Assembly (NCBI GenBank): GCA_030673845.1
Contig: JAUTCQ010000019.1
Coordinates: 1-64,000, forward strand
Direction: 5' to 3'
Source: Verrucomicrobiota bacterium JB022
GTDB lineage: Bacteria > Verrucomicrobiota > Verrucomicrobiia > Opitutales > Oceanipulchritudinaceae
DNA: 64,000 nt
The translations under genes and the position numbers were made by a program. Below the pieces are notes generated by a model. The model saw nothing but the letters and a program-made list of their open reading frames with translations, did not search any database and had not been told where the DNA came from. Shown piece by piece: positions 53,956 through 63,222 of the stretch (positions are counted from its first letter, which is position 1; each line of letters starts with the position of its first letter).

Positions 53956-56454
53956 GTGATCATGCCCCTGCCACGCCTGCGCGTTCCCCTCCTCCTATGT
54001 GCCCTCATTGGGGCTAGCCTCACGTCTTTTGCGGACACCTTGAACCCACGGGTCGAGCCTGCCTCGCCGGAATCGACCCGCATCCTCCCGATTGCAGGGG
54101 ATGGTTTCTCCGGCTCGTCCGTAAACGTGATTGCGGGCCTGCAGCACACACTTTTTACGCACCGGAGCACGCAATATGCGGCCTTTTATGCTGCTGATGG
54201 TACGCTGGTGCTGGCCCGTCGCGCCATCGGCTCCGATACCTGGGAGACACGGCGCACGCCCTATACGGGGAAAGTTGCTGACGCCCACAACTCCGCCAGC
54301 CTGGTCGTAGACGGCGCGGGCTACCTGCACGTCGCGTGGGATCACCACGGCAACGGCCTCAACTACGCGCGTTCGGTCGAACCGGGCTCATTGGAGCTTG
54401 GGCCACGACAGCGCATGGTCGGTCGCGACGAATCCCGCGTGACCTACCCGTCGTTCATCCGCCTGCGCGACGGCGACCTCTTGGCGTTTTACCGCGACGG
54501 AGCTTCCGGTCAGGGCAACCTCGTGCTCAACCGCTACGATGTGGAGACACAAAAGTGGTCGCGCGTGCAGGACAAGGTGCTCGACGGTGAGGGCCAGCGC
54601 AGCGCCTACCCTTCCTTTTATTATGACCGTCGCGGCACGCTCCATCTGGCCTGGGTCTGGCGCGAATCACCCGACGTGGCTACCAACCACGACATCGCCT
54701 ACGCGCGCTCCACCGATGGCGGTAAGAAGTGGACGACCATCGACGGAAAGCCCCTCCAGTTGCCAATTACTCAAGCTTCCGCCGACTATGCCGTGCGAAT
54801 CCCGCAAGGCAGGAGCCTGATGAATCCGCCCGCCGTTTCAGCAGATAGCCAGAGCAATCCGCTGCTGGTCAATTACTGGGCGCCCGAGGGCTCGGATGTT
54901 CCGCAGTATCATCTGGTGCGGTTCGACGGCCAAGGCTGGCGCACTTCACAAATCACTCAGCGCACACAGCCCTTTACGCTCTCCGGTACCAACACCAAGC
55001 GCCCGCCTCTCTCCCGTGCGGTCGTGGTGGTGGAACGCCCCTGGCGCCGTCCAGTCATGGCTTATGTGGCTTTTCGCGACGACGAGCGCGATGGGCGAGC
55101 GGTGATCGCTTCCAGCACTAATATCGAGACGGAGCAGCCTATTTGGAAAATCTCCGATCTCACCGCAACATCGCTGGGTGCCTGGGAGCCTTCGTTTGAT
55201 CCGGAGCAGTGGCTGCGGATGCGCCAACTGCACCTGCTCGTCCAGCCCGTGACACAGCGTGACGGCAATGACCAGCAAGCGGCCGATGTCGAGCCTACGC
55301 CGGTCGCCAACCTCATCTGGAGCCCCTTCCTCGCCGAACTGGCGGACAACCGCGCGTCAAAGGAACACGAGGCATTGCCGATTCCTGCCGCCGGGGAGCT
55401 GGAGCGTCCGCTCGTGCCCGCCGAGATACTGCCGATCCTCGAACGAGTGACGGAGTGGCAATTTGCTTTCGATTACCAACGCGACCCACGCGGCTGGGAA
55501 ATCGCGCCGTTTTACATCGGGGCACTGGAGGCGGCGCGTTATACGGCGTCGGAACGGATCGAGGGCGAGTTGCAGCGCCGGTTTGAGAAGATGGGATGGA
55601 AGCCCGCCCCGCGCCCCTACCACGCCGATGACTATGCGGTCATTCAGGCCTACGCGGAACTAGGCCGCCGCATGGACGAACCTGCCACAATGAAGCCCTC
55701 GCTGGCTTACCTGGATAACATCATCGAGAACCCATCGCCCGCCCTGCTGGAATGGGGCACACCACACGTCGACGACCGCTGGTCGTGGTGCGACGCCCTC
55801 TTCATGGGGCCGGCTTCGCTGCTGGATGCCTACCTGCTGACGGGTGATGAGCGCTATCTGGAGTTTGCCAACCGCGAGTGGTGGGCCACGACCGATTTCC
55901 TGTTTAGCCCGGTGGATGGATTTTATGCGCGCGATCAGAGCTACCTGGATGTGCGCGAGCCCAACGGTCAGAACATCTACTGGTCGCGCGGGAACGGCTG
56001 GGTTGCGGCAGGGCTAGCCCGTGTGCTGGCGCGCTTTCCAAAAGACCATCAAGACTACCCGCGTTACGTTGCCCTCTACCAGCGCATGATGATTGCGGTG
56101 CTCGCCGCCCAGCAGCCCGACGGTCTCTGGCGTCCCGGCCTGCTTGCTCCGGATTCACACCAGGCTCGGGAGGTCAGCGGCAGTGCCTTCTACACCTTTG
56201 CACTCGCCTGGGGCGTCAACCACGGTCTGCTTGACCGCGAAGCAACGCTGCCCGCCATTCGCCGCGCCTGGAACGCCATGACCGCTTGTGTGCGTGAAGA
56301 TGGCAAGGTCGAGCACATCCAGCCCATTGGTGCCGCACCGGAAGGCTTCGACCCGTCCCACACCGACGCGTTTGGCGTCGGCGCGTTCCTGCTTGCTGGC
56401 TCGGAGATTTATGCGCTGGTCGCGGACGAGGAGCCGGTAAGCTATCAGGATTGA
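53956..56454 (+). CDS. Secreted BNR_4 polysaccharide lyase-like propeller fused to GH105 hydrolase
   Basis: The product has 832 residues. A signal peptide ends near SFADT. Residues about 45-470 form a BNR_4 seven-bladed propeller of the PL24/PL25 ulvan-lyase type: DAHNS with His111, WDHHGN with His130 and His131, TYP with Tyr164, and FYRDG with Arg180. Residues about 490-825 form a GH105 (alpha/alpha)6 barrel with catalytic Asp613 in WCDALFMG, YWSRGNGW, and SGSAFYTFALAWG. The first domain would cleave uronate-containing glycan by elimination; the second would remove the unsaturated uronyl end it makes. Ulvan or rhamnogalacturonan are candidate substrates. It overlaps the end of the convergent allophanate hydrolase gene by 10 bases. 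Confidence 0.85.
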   Translation: MIMPLPRLRVPLLLCALIGASLTSFADTLNPRVEPASPESTRILPIAGDGFSGSSVNVIAGLQHTLFTHRSTQYAAFYAADGTLVLARRAIGSDTWETRRTPYTGKVADAHNSASLVVDGAGYLHVAWDHHGNGLNYARSVEPGSLELGPRQRMVGRDESRVTYPSFIRLRDGDLLAFYRDGASGQGNLVLNRYDVETQKWSRVQDKVLDGEGQRSAYPSFYYDRRGTLHLAWVWRESPDVATNHDIAYARSTDGGKKWTTIDGKPLQLPITQASADYAVRIPQGRSLMNPPAVSADSQSNPLLVNYWAPEGSDVPQYHLVRFDGQGWRTSQITQRTQPFTLSGTNTKRPPLSRAVVVVERPWRRPVMAYVAFRDDERDGRAVIASSTNIETEQPIWKISDLTATSLGAWEPSFDPEQWLRMRQLHLLVQPVTQRDGNDQQAADVEPTPVANLIWSPFLAELADNRASKEHEALPIPAAGELERPLVPAEILPILERVTEWQFAFDYQRDPRGWEIAPFYIGALEAARYTASERIEGELQRRFEKMGWKPAPRPYHADDYAVIQAYAELGRRMDEPATMKPSLAYLDNIIENPSPALLEWGTPHVDDRWSWCDALFMGPASLLDAYLLTGDERYLEFANREWWATTDFLFSPVDGFYARDQSYLDVREPNGQNIYWSRGNGWVAAGLARVLARFPKDHQDYPRYVALYQRMMIAVLAAQQPDGLWRPGLLAPDSHQAREVSGSAFYTFALAWGVNHGLLDREATLPAIRRAWNAMTACVREDGKVEHIQPIGAAPEGFDPSHTDAFGVGAFLLAGSEIYALVADEEPVSYQD

Positions 56455-58172
56455 GTTGCCTGCAGATAGGCCCGCCAGCCGCCGTTGGCTGTAATGTCTT
56501 TGGCGGCCGTGGTGGCGATCGATTCGCAGAGGAAGCCCAGCTCGCGGCGGCCATCGGCCAGCTCGACCCAGCCCAGGCCGAGCGGCGGGCTGATCTGGGC
56601 GGCAAAGGTGCCCCAGTGGCGTTTAGGGAGGTCCCAGACTTCCACATCCAACGCCGCCCCACCCTCCGGCACGCGCACGATGCCGGGCTTGGCAATCGAG
56701 CCGGGGAGCGCGTAGGCCCGGTAGACGGGTGCCGTGCGGGTGGCCTCCTGCAACGTTGCGCCCAGTTCGGTCAGTTGCCAGTTGAGCGGCAGGCCCTGCA
56801 GATGCGCGCCACAGACGACGATGGGCTGCGTGGTCTCCGGTTCGAGCGGCAGTTGCGCGCAAAGATCCAGCAGGCGACGGTCGCTGAAGGCCGGGCCAAC
56901 CAGCGTCACGCCAAAGGGCAGCCCTTGCTCCGTAAACCCAGCGGGTGCCGCCAGCGCGCAGCAGTCGAGCAGGTTCATGAAATTGGTATAGAAGCCCAGA
57001 TTGCTGTTGGTCTGGACAGGATCGGCCTCCACCTCGGCACGCGTGTAGATCGTGCCAGCCGTCGGGGTCAGGAGCGCGTCCACCGAGCGCCAGACCCGTT
57101 CCACTTCACGCTTCAGGGCCTCCAGCCGGTAGAGTGACTTGAAGAGGTCGGTCGCCTTCAGGTTCGCTCCGCCGCCGATGATCTTTCGCGTTACGGGGTG
57201 CAAGGCGTCCGTGTTGCGCTCGATCAGCTCCTGAATCGCGCAATAGCGCTCGCTGACCCACGGCCCTTCGTAGAGCAGGCGGGCGGCTTCGGCGAAGGGC
57301 TCAAAGTCTACCACGTGGGTCTGCACGCCTTGCGCCTCCAGCCGGGCGAGCGTCTCGCGGTAAAGGCGCTCGTATTCTGCGTTGCCGAAGAACTTGCATT
57401 GCTCGGGCGCTACGATGCCGATCACGGGCGTCGGACGCTGCGGGAAGGCGTTGCTTCGGGCAGGCCGAGCATAGGCGTCCTTGGGGTCGTAGTCGGCCGT
57501 CAGCTCCAGTAGCGTGCGGGAGTCGGCGGCGTTGAGGGCAAAGATCGACACGCAGTCCAGCGAGCGACAGGCCGGCACGACGCCGAGCGCGCTGAGCAGG
57601 CCACGGGTCGGTTTGACGCCATAGAGGTGATTGAAAGCAGCCGGCACGCGGCCCGACCCCGCCGTATCCGTCCCTAGCGAAAAGCTCGCCAGGCCTTGTG
57701 CGACGGCTGCCGCCGAGCCCGAGCTGGAGCCGCCGGGGATATGCTCCGCCGAATAGGCATTGCGTGGCACGCCGAAGGGCGAGCGCACGCCGACGAGGCC
57801 CGTCGCGAACTGGTCGAGGTTGGTCTTGCCCAGCGGGAGCGCGCCCAGGTCGATCAGGCGCTGCACCACATGCGCCGATTCCTCCGGCACGTAACGGTAG
57901 TCTGCGCACGAGGCGGTGGTTGGCACGCCTGCGAGGTCGATATTGTCCTTGATCGCAAACGGGATGCCGTAGAGGGGCAAATCGACTGGCGACTGCTGCT
58001 CCAAACGCTGCAGGTAAGGCTCCAGCTCTTCGGCGCAGAGACGGTGCAGGTAGATCGCGGGATCGTCCACCTGTTGCCAGCGCTGGTCGAGCTGCGCGAC
58101 AAGTTGGCGGGGCGTGAGGCGGCCTTGCACATAGGCCGCGCGCAGAGTCTTGAGGTCGAGGGAAAGGGCCAT
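56445..58172 (-). CDS. atzF: Allophanate hydrolase
   Basis: The product has 575 residues. It splits allophanate into ammonia and carbon dioxide in the cytosol. The amidase-signature domain (1 to about 440) has the Ser-cisSer-Lys triad: Lys in AIKDNIDLAG and Ser residues in GGSSSGSAAAVA and TDTAGSGRVPA. The C-terminal domain (about 450-575) is the AtzF/DUR1 type that completes the hydrolysis. Its length fits stand-alone AtzF. It starts 12 bases after the carboxylase gene on the same strand. ATG 58172 is used; upstream in-frame codons lie inside the carboxylase gene. Confidence 0.94.
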   Translation of the reverse strand: MALSLDLKTLRAAYVQGRLTPRQLVAQLDQRWQQVDDPAIYLHRLCAEELEPYLQRLEQQSPVDLPLYGIPFAIKDNIDLAGVPTTASCADYRYVPEESAHVVQRLIDLGALPLGKTNLDQFATGLVGVRSPFGVPRNAYSAEHIPGGSSSGSAAAVAQGLASFSLGTDTAGSGRVPAAFNHLYGVKPTRGLLSALGVVPACRSLDCVSIFALNAADSRTLLELTADYDPKDAYARPARSNAFPQRPTPVIGIVAPEQCKFFGNAEYERLYRETLARLEAQGVQTHVVDFEPFAEAARLLYEGPWVSERYCAIQELIERNTDALHPVTRKIIGGGANLKATDLFKSLYRLEALKREVERVWRSVDALLTPTAGTIYTRAEVEADPVQTNSNLGFYTNFMNLLDCCALAAPAGFTEQGLPFGVTLVGPAFSDRRLLDLCAQLPLEPETTQPIVVCGAHLQGLPLNWQLTELGATLQEATRTAPVYRAYALPGSIAKPGIVRVPEGGAALDVEVWDLPKRHWGTFAAQISPPLGLGWVELADGRRELGFLCESIATTAAKDITANGGWRAYLQATQS

Positions 58173-58183
58173 GATGCGTTTTT

Positions 58184-61100
58184 CTAGGCAGTGGCAAGCG
58201 GGCGGATGACGGCGAGGGCCTGGCCGGTCTGAACCGCAGTGCCTTCGTGGCAGCGGACTTCCACCACCTCGCAATCCTGCGTCGCGGGGCAGCCCACCTC
58301 CATTTTCATGGATTCGAGCACGACGAGCGGGTCGCCGGCGGCAATACGCTGGCCGGGCTGCACGGCGATCTTCCAGACGTTGCCGGTGACTTGGGCCGTA
58401 AGCAGCTCGCAGCCTTCGGGCAACGCTTCGGCGTCGTCGAGCAAGCCATCGGTGAAGCCGTCTTCGGCCTCAAAAGTCGCCTGCCCGTCGCGCACCCAGC
58501 GATCACGTTCGGCCTCGAACGAAGCCTGCTGGTGCTGCTTGAAGGTGCGGATGCCTTCGGCGTTGTCGCGCAGGAAGCGTTGGTAATCGCCGAGATCGAA
58601 CGTCGTTTCCTCGACCTTCGGCGTAAAGCGTCCATGGGGGAAGTCAGCACGCATTTGCATCAGCTCGTCGTGGCTCACTGGGTAGAAGCGGATCTGGTCG
58701 AAGAAGCGCAGCAGCCACGGCTGGCCGGAGGCAAACAGTGGCGTGCTGCGCTGGCGGTTCCACACTTGCACGGTGCGGCCAACAAATTGATACCCGCCCG
58801 GGCCCTCCATCCCATAGATGCACATGTAGGCACCGCCGATGCCGACCGCGTTTTCCGGCGTCCATGTGCGGGCCGGATTGTATTTGGTCGTTACAAGGCG
58901 GTGGCGCGGGTCGATGGGGGTGGCCACCGGCGCCCCGAGGTAGACGTCGCCCAAGCCGAGCACAAGATAGCTGGCGTTAAAGACGATGTCCTTCACCTCT
59001 TCGATCGAATCGAGACCGTTGATGCGGCGGATAAACTCGATATTGCTGGGCGCCCAGGGCGCGTTTTTGCGCACGATCTGGTCGTACTTGCGGATCGCGA
59101 GCTGCGTCTGCTCGTCGTCCCAGGACAGCGGGAGGTGCACGATGCGTGTTGGCAGCGTCATCTCCGTGACCGAAGGCAGACCCGCTTCGAGCGCCAGCAG
59201 GTGGTCCATGAGCGCCGAGAGTTTAAGCTGCAGGGGGTTATAGCGCACCTGCAGCGAGCGGATGCCCGGCGTCATCTCCAGCAGGCCGGGCAAGGGCTGA
59301 TCTTGCAGCGCCTGCATCAGCGCGTGGACCCGGAAGCGCAGGTTGAGGTCGAGCACCATTTCGCCGTATTCGACCAACACCGCGTGGTCCCCCGAGCGGC
59401 GATACGTCACGGCCAGACGACGGTCGGCGGTGGGCTCCAAGCGCGTGATAATCGCCGGATCGCCGGCTGTATTGTCGGTCGCCTTGGCCGCCGGAGCCTG
59501 TAGCGTCACGAGCATGCGCTCCTGCGCCTCCAGCAGGCGGTCGGCCTCGGTATGGCTCACCTGCACGAAGCGCACCTTGTCACCCGGGCGGAACTGGCCG
59601 ATTTTCCAGAGGTCGGCGGCAATAATTGTGGCCGGGCAGACAAAGCCGCCCAGGCTGGGGCCATCCGGGCCGAGGATGATCGGCATGTCGCCGGTGAAAT
59701 CGATGGCGCCGATCGCGTAGGCGTTGTCGTGGATGTTCGACGGGTGCAGACCCGCCTCGCCGCCGTCGGTGCGGGCCCACTTCGGCTTGGGGCCGATCAG
59801 GCGCACGCCCGTGCGGGCCGAGTTGTAATGCACCTCCCAATCGGTGCCGAAGAACATCGCGATGTCGCCTTCGGTAAAGAAGTCCGGCGCGCCGTGCGGG
59901 CCGTAGAGCACGCGCACCTGCCAAGTGTCGCCGTAGCGAGGCTGTAGAGCTGCAGGCAGCGTTTCGGCTTCGGTCTGCTCCTGCTCGCTGAGGTGGAGCA
60001 CGTCCCCGGCTTGCAGCGTGCGACCATTGTGCCCCCCAAACTTGCCCAGCGTGAAGGTGGCCTTGCTGCCGAGGTAAGCCGGCACATCCAGCCCGCCCGC
60101 CAAGGCGAGGTAAGCCCGGCAGCCGGTGCCTTTCACTTTGCCGAGCGCGAGCGTGGCACCGGCCGATACCGGCACGGCTTGCCAATGCGGCACGGGCTCG
60201 CCGTCGAGCGTGGCTTCGATTTCGGCCCCGGTGAGGCAAATCGTGGTCGCGCCCTGGAACTTCAAGGTTGGGCCTGTCAGCGTGATCTCGAGCCCGGCGG
60301 CGTCCTTGTCGTTACCAAGGATGCGGTTGCCAAGGCGGAACGCCAGGCTGTCCATCGGGCCGGATGGCGGCACGCCCACATCCCAATAGCCTACACGGCC
60401 GGGATAGTCCTGCACCGTGGTGAAAGTGCCGGGTGCCAACACGTCCACCGTGCGGCTGACGTAGGTAAAGCCTTCGAGAAAGCGCGTGTGCACCTTACCC
60501 TCTTGAAACACGAGCTGGGCGAAGATCTGGCGAGTAAATTCAAGATTCGTCTCCACCCCCGAAAGGCGCGTCTCTGCCAGCGCCTGTTGCATGCGCGTGA
60601 TAGCTTGGGCGCGGTCGCCTGCCAACACGAGCACCTTGGCCAGCATCGGGTCGTAATAAGGGCTCACCTCCGTGCCGCGCTCGACCCAACGGTCAACGCG
60701 GGTCCATTCGGGGAACACGGCTTCGGTCAACTCACCCGTGCTGGGCTGGAAGTTCTTCAGTGGGTCTTCGGCGTAGATGCGGGTCTGAATCGCATGGCCT
60801 TGGGGGCGGATCGAATTCTGAGCGGGGACTTCCCAGCCACCGGCGGCGAGGCGGACCATCCATTCGACGAGATCGACGCCCGTCACCAACTCCGTCACCC
60901 CATGCTCGACCTGCAGGCGCGTATTGACCTCCAGAAAGTAGAATTGTTGCGAACCTACGTCGTAGATAAACTCCACCGTGCCCGCCGAGCGGTAGCCGAT
61001 GCTTTCGCCTAGACGACGGGCGGCTTCGGCCAAGGCCGTGCGCAGGCTTTCCGTGATCCCGAGCGCGGGGGTCTCTTCGATTACCTTCTGGTTTCGGCGC

Positions 61101-61792
61101 TGCACGGAGCAATCGCGTTCGCCGAGCGTCACCACCCTGCCCTGCCCGTCGCCAAAGATCTGCACCTCGATGTGGCGGGCGCGCTCCAGATACTTTTCGA
61201 GGAAGAGCGCGGCATCGTTGAAGTTGTTGCGCGACAGACGTTCGACGGCGGCGTAGGCCAGTTCCAGCTCTTTCGCGTCGCGGCAAAGGCGCATACCGAT
61301 CCCACCACCGCCTGCGCTGCTCTTGAGCATCACGGGGTAGCCGATCTCGCCCGCCTGCACGAGCGCGTCCTGCACGTCGGCCAGCACGCCCGTGCCCGGC
61401 ACCAGCGGCACCTCGGCCTCTTGCGCGACTTCACGCGCGGTATGTTTGAGGCCAAAGCGCCGCATCTGCTCGGGCGTCGGGCCGATGAAGGCCACGCCTG
61501 CCGCTTCGCACGCCTCGGCAAAGGCAGCATTCTCGCTCAGCAGCCCGTAGCCGGGGTGGATCGCCTGGGCTCCGGTCTGGCGGGCGGCTTCGAGGATCGC
61601 GACGACGTTGAGGTAGCTTTCGGCGACGGGGGCCGGGCCGACGCGCACTGCCTCATCCGCCAGGCTCACGTGGGCCGCGTAGGCGTCGGCATCGGAATAG
61701 ATCGCGACGGAGCGGACGCCGAGCTGGCGCAGGGTGCGGATGATGCGGCAGGCGATTTCGCCCCGGTTGGCAATGAGAACCTTGTTGAACAT
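58184..61792 (-). CDS. uca: Urea/guanidine carboxylase, biotin-dependent
   Basis: The product has 1202 residues. The biotin carboxylase domain (1-450) has [11 protein letters not shown], the ATP loop [10 protein letters not shown] and [14 protein letters not shown]. The KipA/AHS2-like domain (about 470-780, [19 protein letters not shown]) and the KipI/AHS1-like domain (about 800-1060) form the carboxyltransferase. The biotin domain at the C-terminus has the biotinyl Lys in ESMKME. It carboxylates urea to allophanate or guanidine to carboxyguanidine using bicarbonate and ATP. The adjoining DUF1989 pair favours guanidine. All domains are complete. Confidence 0.92.
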
Positions 61793-61812
61793 ACGGGCAG
61801 CAGGCAGGGCGT

Positions 61813-62460
61813 TTAACGGTCGCCGTCCCAGATCAGGACTTCGACGGGCGTCGGGTTGTAGGCGTTGCAGGGGTTGTTGAGCTGCGGGCAGTTGGAGATG
61901 AGCACGTAGACATCGCGCTCGGCCCGTAGCTCCACGTAGCGGCCCGGAGCCGAGATACCATCGGCGAAGGTCAACCGACCATCGGGCGTCACCGGCACGT
62001 TCATGAAGAAGTTGATATTGCAGGTGATGTCGCGCTTATCGAGGTGGTGCTCGCAGCATTCCTGCACCCCGCGGATAAAGCTGTCGCGGCAGGCGTGCAT
62101 GTGCTCCTTATCAAGGGCGTAGCGCATGGTATTGCTCTCGCGCGAGCAGGCGCCGCCCAGCGTATCGTGCCGACCGCAGGTGTCGGCCACAATGGTCATC
62201 AGGGCATGGCCGAGATTCGAGTAGAGCACGCTGCCGGTGGTCAGATAGAGCTTGCCCTGCCGCTGGATCGTGTCGCTGGCGCTGTAGCGGTCGTCCGGGT
62301 GATGCGCATCGTAGATCAGGGTGTCGGCGGCCTGATTGCCTTCGAGGTCGTGGATGCGGAAAATCTGGCCCTGACGCACGACGTGCATCCAGCGATCACC
62401 CGCAAGAATGGTGTGACGATAAACGGCCTGGGCCGGTTCGTAAGTGCTTTCGGTCAACAT
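61813..62460 (-). CDS. DUF1989 protein, urea-carboxylase-associated protein 2 / carboxyguanidine deiminase subunit
   Basis: The product has 215 residues, a DUF1989 beta-fold with [30 protein letters not shown] and [10 protein letters not shown] motifs. Genes of this kind, always in pairs beside a urea-carboxylase-like gene, were formerly called urea-carboxylase-associated proteins. The pair is now known in several bacteria to form carboxyguanidine deiminase, which turns carboxyguanidine into allophanate and ammonia. Cys and His residues in the [11 protein letters not shown] segment are metal-site candidates. It lies 20 bases before the carboxylase and 18 after its partner. Confidence 0.88.
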
Positions 62461-62478
62461 GGCGGTCGTGGGTGTGGG

Positions 62479-63222
62479 CTAGAAGCGCAGGCGGTTGTAG
62501 ACCTCGGTGTTCTGGAAGGCGCGACCGTTTTCGGGGCGCGAGAGGCGGCAGGGGTCGTCTTCGACCACCGGGGCGTTGCGGAAGACTTCGAGCTGCACGG
62601 GCTTGGGGGCATACTGCGGGTTGGGATCGAGCGGATGCTGACAGGTGTTGAACACCACGAGCACGTCCAGCTCGCAACGCAGGTCGATGGCGGCCCCGGC
62701 TTTGGCGTGGGTAGGATCAAAGCTGAGCGCCCCTTCTTCGTCTGAGATCACTTTGCTGAAGAGGTTCAGATTGGGCACGAGGTCCTTTTCGCTGAGGCCC
62801 CACTTGGCCAGCTCGATCAGGAAGCACTCGCGCCCATTGCGGTGAAAGTCGTTGCGGGCCTCCTCATAGGTCTTCTCGCCATACTTCTGGCGGACCAGCT
62901 TAGCGTCGGAGCAGCCGCAGACGGTGTCGTGCCAGCCGGAGGAGTCGCCCGTGATCGAGCACAACAGGCGGCCCATGTCGGAGTGGAGGCAATAAGGCGC
63001 GGTGAGGTAAAAGATGTGCTGCCCCTTCAGCGTATCGGGCATGTTGTAGCGCTCGTGCCGCTCCAGCGCATTGTAGAGCAGGAGGCCGACATTGGCGCCG
63101 CCTTCGAGGTCGGTCAGACGCAGGGTCTTGCCGCGCCCGATCACTTTGGACCACATGCCGCCACCGCGGATCGTCTCCCGGTGTAGCAGGTCTCCTTCAG
63201 GAATGGGGGGAAGTTGAGTCAT
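62479..63222 (-). CDS. DUF1989 protein, urea-carboxylase-associated protein 1 / carboxyguanidine deiminase subunit
   Basis: The product has 247 residues, the larger of the DUF1989 pair. Motifs parallel its neighbour: [32 protein letters not shown] and PNLNLFSKV. The paired CGCSD segment is the likely active or metal site. It has a 50-base A/T-rich gap before it, between it and the ABC ATPase gene. Both DUF1989 genes, the carboxylase and allophanate hydrolase follow in the same direction with 12-20 base spacings, so all are probably one transcript. Confidence 0.88.

Follow-up and report, generated by a model that had tools for sequence, protein, structure and literature searches.

We analyzed a gene of Verrucomicrobiota bacterium JB022 that encodes, on one predicted exported chain, what we consider to be a two-step exo-enzyme: a PL42 lyase for Rha-α-1,4-GlcA ends, followed by a GH105 domain (probability about 0.74). 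The gene lies within a 64,000-nucleotide stretch of contig JAUTCQ010000019.1, which was analyzed as a whole (the window). Its features are given below, with residue numbers counted throughout from the GTG at the start of the open reading frame.

53956..56454, forward strand: PL42-GH105 fusion gene, 832 aa (intact ORF, translation, Pfam)
53962..54033, forward strand: putative Sec signal peptide, residues 3-26, read by eye as MPLPRLRVPLLLCALIGASLTSFA followed by DT
54073..55335, forward strand: seven-bladed propeller of PL42 (formerly GH145), residues 40-460 (Pfam, PDB matches, model alignment)
54160..54162, forward strand: His69, equivalent to the posterior-site His48 of BT3686 (alignment)
54280..54288, forward strand: Asp109 and His111, equivalent to Asp83 and the base/acid His85 of FoRham1 (alignment; roles from PMC8377490, PMC10951650)
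54346..54348, forward strand: His131, equivalent to FoRham1 His105 (alignment)
54445..54447, forward strand: Tyr164, equivalent to FoRham1 Tyr150 (alignment)
54493..54495, forward strand: Arg180, equivalent to the charge neutralizer Arg166 of FoRham1 (alignment)
55075..55077, forward strand: Arg374, equivalent to BT3686 Arg333 (alignment)
55336..55413, forward strand: short linker, residues ~461-486 (alignment; model pLDDT ~79-80)
55414..56433, forward strand: GH105 (α/α)6 domain, residues 487-826 (Pfam; 4ce7 at E 3e-65; model)
55792..55794, forward strand: Asp613, GH105 catalytic acid (the block from 611 aligns with YteR from 141 in 1nc5, i.e., with Asp143)

The ATG at 53962 is the likelier start codon, in preference to the GTG, judging from the sequence. 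The Sec-type signal, read by eye from the translation, ends near TSFA/DT, and the AlphaFold model (built from 39 sequences; mean pLDDT 89.2, pTM 0.88) places a helix at residues 9-29, over the putative signal peptide. Pfam searches matched BNR_4 at residues 72-335 (E 1e-89) and Glyco_hydro_88, the family that holds GH105, at residues 508-820 (E 5e-58). A chance or broken frame is excluded because a homologue that is 70% identical over its full length (genome G250) carries the same fusion and because, in an NG86 comparison of the two, dN (~0.2) is far below dS (~1.5, which is near saturation).

The propeller was assigned to PL42 on the basis of both sequence and fold. Searches of the PDB returned BACOVA_03493 (4irt) and BT3686 (5muk) at E ~1e-124 and FoRham1 at 1e-24, whereas the ulvan lyases matched weakly (PL24 at 1e-8 to 1e-5, PL25 at 0.009; 2e-9 to 0.0048 when the propeller alone was the query). 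The modeled propeller aligned along its full seven-bladed length with the PL42 chains at Z 54-60 (4irt, 5mum, and 5mvh at Z 59.5-59.9, rmsd 1.2-1.4 over 394-398 residues), with FoRham1 at 41-43, with PL25 at 34, and with PL24 at 28-29, and the protein was placed inside the PL42 tree. Its score against NCBIfam NF052497, the equivalog model for BT3686-type α-L-rhamnosidases, was 512 bits, below the curated cut-off of 700; the PL42 protein of Phocaeicola plebeius DSM 17135 scores 796. The initial annotation had called the propeller an ulvan-type lyase of the PL24/25 kind, and this assignment does not survive, because the PL42 chains score E ~1e-124 and Z ~60, whereas the ulvan lyases reach E no better than 1e-9 and Z 28-34; membership of PL24 or PL25 is thus rejected. 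The spacings on which it drew were correctly counted (His111 to His131, 20; Tyr164 to Arg180, 16) and do apply to PL25, in which PLSV_3936 has His123/His143 and Tyr188/Arg204 (PMC8377490). FoRham1 of PL42 has the same two spacings (His85/His105, Tyr150/Arg166; PMC8377490), and PL24, PL25, and PL42 all share the His-His-Asp motif (PMC10951650). Because these residues are common to the three families, they are not diagnostic of an ulvan lyase.

The anterior set of FoRham1 (Asp83, His85, His105, Tyr150, and Arg166) is matched in full by Asp109, His111, His131, Tyr164, and Arg180, respectively. His111, Tyr164, and Arg180 are invariant in all 86 aligned PL42 sequences, and His131 is present in 85 of them. 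Two functional sites were found in BT3686, whose H90A, Y143F, and R333A mutants are inactive on wine arabinogalactan protein (AGP) (PMC8406133); the residues concerned are all present here, as His111, Tyr164, and Arg374. At the GH105 end, the best-matching solved structure by sequence is 4ce7 (E 3e-65, ~35% identity), and the modeled domain aligns with 5noa, 4ce7, and 4q88 at Z 45-46 (45.8 for 4ce7), in agreement with the Glyco_hydro_88 match at 5e-58. Asp613 is invariant across the 54 alignment rows that cover it. The statement that Asp613, RGNGW, and SGSAFYTFALAWG are intact was borne out, and the broader idea of a lyase-type propeller and a GH105 domain suited to its product, with catalytic residues present on one exported chain, is also supported.

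These residues suggest the following course of reaction. On the anterior face of the propeller, Arg180, His131, and Tyr164 would neutralize the carboxylate of the glucuronate in subsite +1, and His111, held by Asp109, would abstract the C5 proton and protonate the leaving oxygen. L-Rhamnose, or a modified rhamnose, would be freed, and a 4,5-unsaturated glucuronyl end would stay on the glycan. In the GH105 domain, Asp613 would drive hydration of the double bond, so that the unsaturated uronate leaves and the next sugar is exposed. The fusion may be of benefit by passing on the product at high local concentration and in fixed 1:1 supply.

We compared this arrangement with that in PL42 relatives. 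A contig scan yielded at least 562 such relatives, from which the best 80 were kept; the trees cover these 80 loci and one class, and the fusion counts are lower bounds. Among the best 80, five PL42 genes are fused to GH105, namely those of an Acidobacteriota member (L013), Gilvimarinus (L035), Glaciecola (L050), Pedobacter (L067), and Bacteroides (L080), and at other kept loci a GH105 gene lies directly downstream of the PL42 gene. With the JB022 gene included, 28 of 81 PL42 genes (the best 80 of at least 562 plus the query) have GH105 fused or within 6 kb, and 18 of these 28 are fused or separated by less than 200 nt. Three further full-length fusions were found within the taxonomic order of the query, in genomes G250, G127, and G167, at 70%, 54%, and 53% identity, respectively. 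Fused rows fall in three places in the GH105 tree (the query clade, with seven rows and support 100/100; Pedobacter L067; and Bacteroides L080), forcing them into one clade was rejected with p-AU 1.3e-12, and the PL42 tree concurs. We conclude that the PL42-GH105 join arose at least three separate times. L080 is metagenome-assembled, and a sequence error could conceivably account for the missing stop between close-set genes there; the Pedobacter record is not marked as a metagenome assembly. The query clade of the PL42 tree includes some unfused members, which means that GH105 was also lost, or the join later undone, in places.

The chemistry and the order of action are already known for separate proteins: in Bacteroides plebeius, BACPLE00338 (PL42) yields rhamnose and a 235-nm product, which BACPLE00337 (GH105) consumes (PMC8406133). 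At locus L066, from P. plebeius DSM 17135, the PL42 gene is followed directly by a GH105 gene, and for this reason we take the pair to be BACPLE00338 and BACPLE00337; this GH105 protein has a C-terminal DUF2264 domain (L066:7216-9537). No published PL42-GH105 fusion was found in the literature searched, a partial search outside CAZy and most subscription papers. What is new here is the three or more origins of the fusion and the GH105 linkage of 28 of 81 genes regardless of the posterior rhamnosidase His. Other joins were also noted. Two Hymenobacter PL42 propellers are fused to a GH16 domain, possibly a galactanase (L043:5890-8061 and L081:5821-8040); a BNR_4 protein of a different lineage shares one chain with GH105 and DUF4861 (L117:163-3606, genome G177), and its propeller, the first domain, had no sequence match in the PDB; and a 1149-aa frame in a same-genus genome (G001:C30) has BNR_4 and GH105 matches seemingly in one frame.

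The posterior site bears on whether the propeller is instead a retaining rhamnosidase of the BT3686 type, acting through His69 alone or alongside the anterior lyase. Whether the former GH145 enzymes of bacteria are hydrolases or lyases was long unclear: the family was renamed PL42 after FoRham1 turned out to be a lyase, and Kondo et al. left open why the Bacteroides enzymes showed no lyase activity (PMC8377490). His69 matches the posterior His48 of GH145-type rhamnosidases, a comparison of one pocket residue, and 8 of the 12 members of the query clade retain it, even one with a dead anterior site; the two working sites of BT3686 offer a precedent. Across the 86 PL42 sequences, however, this position is His in just 38, Phe in 17, Asp in 10, Gln in 9, and Tyr in 6, and it is not associated with GH105 linkage (His in 15 of 28 linked versus 22 of 53 other genes; Fisher p 0.35, a rough value given that the rows are related). 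Moreover, hydrolysis would give saturated GlcA, whereas GH105 needs an unsaturated sugar (PMC8511951), so this explanation leaves the repeated GH105 fusion unaccounted for. We regard it as unlikely, although it is the foremost competitor of the lyase followed by GH105.

The rhamnose subsite sets the query clade apart from other PL42 sequences. The aromatic residue that touches rhamnose O3 (Tyr26 in FoRham1; the Phe40 position) is Phe in 78 of 80 other PL42 sequences and Gly61 in the JB022 protein, and FoRham1 Gln276 is replaced by Pro291; the FoRham1-type specificity residues Tyr26 and Gln276, which PL42 membership does not require, are thus not matched. In the clade as a whole, compared with the 80 others, the Phe40 position is Gly, Asn, or Ala, the next Arg is varied, and Gln276 is mostly Pro or Ser. 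Because these residues are changed, plain rhamnose may not be the cap that is removed.

Such a subsite could also suit an ulvan-directed lyase (Rha3S-α-1,4-GlcA) within the PL42 fold, with GH105 stripping the unsaturated uronate from ulvan oligosaccharides. The linkage type is the same, Gly61 would open the subsite near O3, where ulvan carries sulfate, the sequence of the GH105 domain is nearest to that of the ulvan enzyme 4ce7, and two fused relatives (Gilvimarinus and Glaciecola) are Gammaproteobacteria. Against this stand the position of the protein outside PL24/25 by sequence and fold ranking, the flanking ORFs of relatives, in which the scan gave no sulfatase-family match, the mere four sulfatase genes of its own genome, and the galactosidase and arabinosidase types among the neighbor genes of relatives. 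Sulfatase matches in the genomes (4 in JB022, 4 in G127, 15 in G250, and 29 in G167) are not decisive for the substrate. Overall, an ulvan target for this protein seems distinctly improbable to us.

For the preferred PL42-GH105 enzyme, the natural substrate would most likely be an arabinogalactan-like side chain capped by rhamnosyl-glucuronate. Beside the fusion in relatives are genes for GH2 and LacZ-type β-galactosidases, GH3, an arabinofuranosidase C-terminal domain, and GH112-type proteins, and the JB022 genome contains RhaA, a GH43 set, and a KduI/IolB-family match. Arabinogalactan is favored because of the PL42 precedent, these neighbor genes, the GH43 set together with RhaA, and the Hymenobacter PL42-GH16 proteins. 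A point against the preferred reading is that the Bacteroides lyase sites cut wine AGP and not gum arabic, for reasons unknown (PMC8406133). Judged from the sequences, the true substrate would be either an arabinogalactan cap or something ulvan-like.

Within the window, the gene does stand apart from polysaccharide genes, as had been claimed: on one side is a CusCBA-type efflux operon and on the other an allophanate hydrolase/urea carboxylase set. The accompanying proposal that the fusion may work alone is weakened, since the fusions of relatives adjoin galactosidase- and arabinosidase-type genes and the JB022 genome is rich in GH43 matches. The adjoining set (56445-63222, reverse strand) consecutively encodes allophanate hydrolase, urea carboxylase, and a pair of DUF1989 proteins, which we take to be a guanidine carboxylase set; no guanidine riboswitch was detected at the Rfam threshold within the window. 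An unfused PL42 gene of genome G115 also lies between allophanate hydrolase and urea carboxylase genes (L126:6037-16663), the same neighbors but in a different order and orientation. We treat this pattern as shared location rather than shared function and reject a functional tie of PL42 to urea or guanidine genes. Elsewhere in the JB022 genome, a second GH105-like gene (G000:C17:304176-304826) lies beside a GH28/pectate-lyase-like gene and likely has a separate pectin function.

One fusion of the query clade has lost its lyase site. In the G167 protein (L124:7544-10273), Ala, Ser, Ala, and His replace the His, His, Tyr, and Arg of that site, and all of the lyase residues examined are lost except at the Asp83, Gln276, and Arg331 positions, whereas every checked GH105 residue is intact and the posterior His is retained. 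Two more genes with strong BNR_4 matches and the size of a PL42 gene are present in that genome, and one of them, L129, was placed in the PL42 tree. The fusion can therefore persist without the first step, and constraint on the lyase site elsewhere is not automatic. That the JB022 propeller is itself only a glycan-binding module, with GH105 as the sole enzyme, is very improbable, for although the G167 protein sets a precedent and related propellers are lectins, the query retains every lyase residue and, along its propeller, NG86 dN is much lower than dS. A more tentative proposal, which we think possible and on balance doubt, is that the query clade constitutes a new subfamily of PL42 with an altered -1 subsite and a cap preference of its own, so tightly coupled to GH105 that the unsaturated uronate would be cleaved off before the product leaves the protein, and that one lineage dropped the lyase site to become a GH105 enzyme with a former lyase as its binding module.

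At least three joins to a domain able to use only the unsaturated product are genomic evidence, from distant phyla, for a lyase role of the former GH145 enzymes. Annotation of such proteins as α-L-rhamnosidases or ulvan lyases would be corrected, and a single-chain tool to strip rhamnosyl-glucuronate caps would be supplied.

Among known systems, the JB022 propeller is 44-48% identical to the Bacteroides PL42 enzymes BT3686, BACPLE00338, BACCELL_00856, and BACOVA_03493. It resembles the BT3686/FoRham1 group in its seven blades, its Asp-His-His-Tyr-Arg anterior site, and Arg374 (R333), and it keeps the posterior His as BT3686 does, but it belongs to a separate clade with an altered rhamnose subsite (Gly61, Leu62, Pro219, and Pro291) and, unlike the known PL42 enzymes, has GH105 on the same chain. 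PL25 PLSV_3936 and PL24 LOR_107 share the propeller fold at 13-17% identity and Z 28-34; the His/His and Tyr/Arg layout is shared with PL25 and the His-His-Asp motif with both families (PMC8377490, PMC10951650). The closest GH105 structure, 4ce7, is the unsaturated 3S-rhamnoglycuronyl hydrolase of Nonlabens ulvanivorans, a stand-alone enzyme for ulvan fragments, whereas the JB022 domain is fused. BACPLE00338 and BACPLE00337 also pair a PL42 enzyme with a GH105 enzyme downstream of it, but as separate genes, and the JB022 GH105 domain belongs to a different GH105 lineage from that of BACPLE00337.
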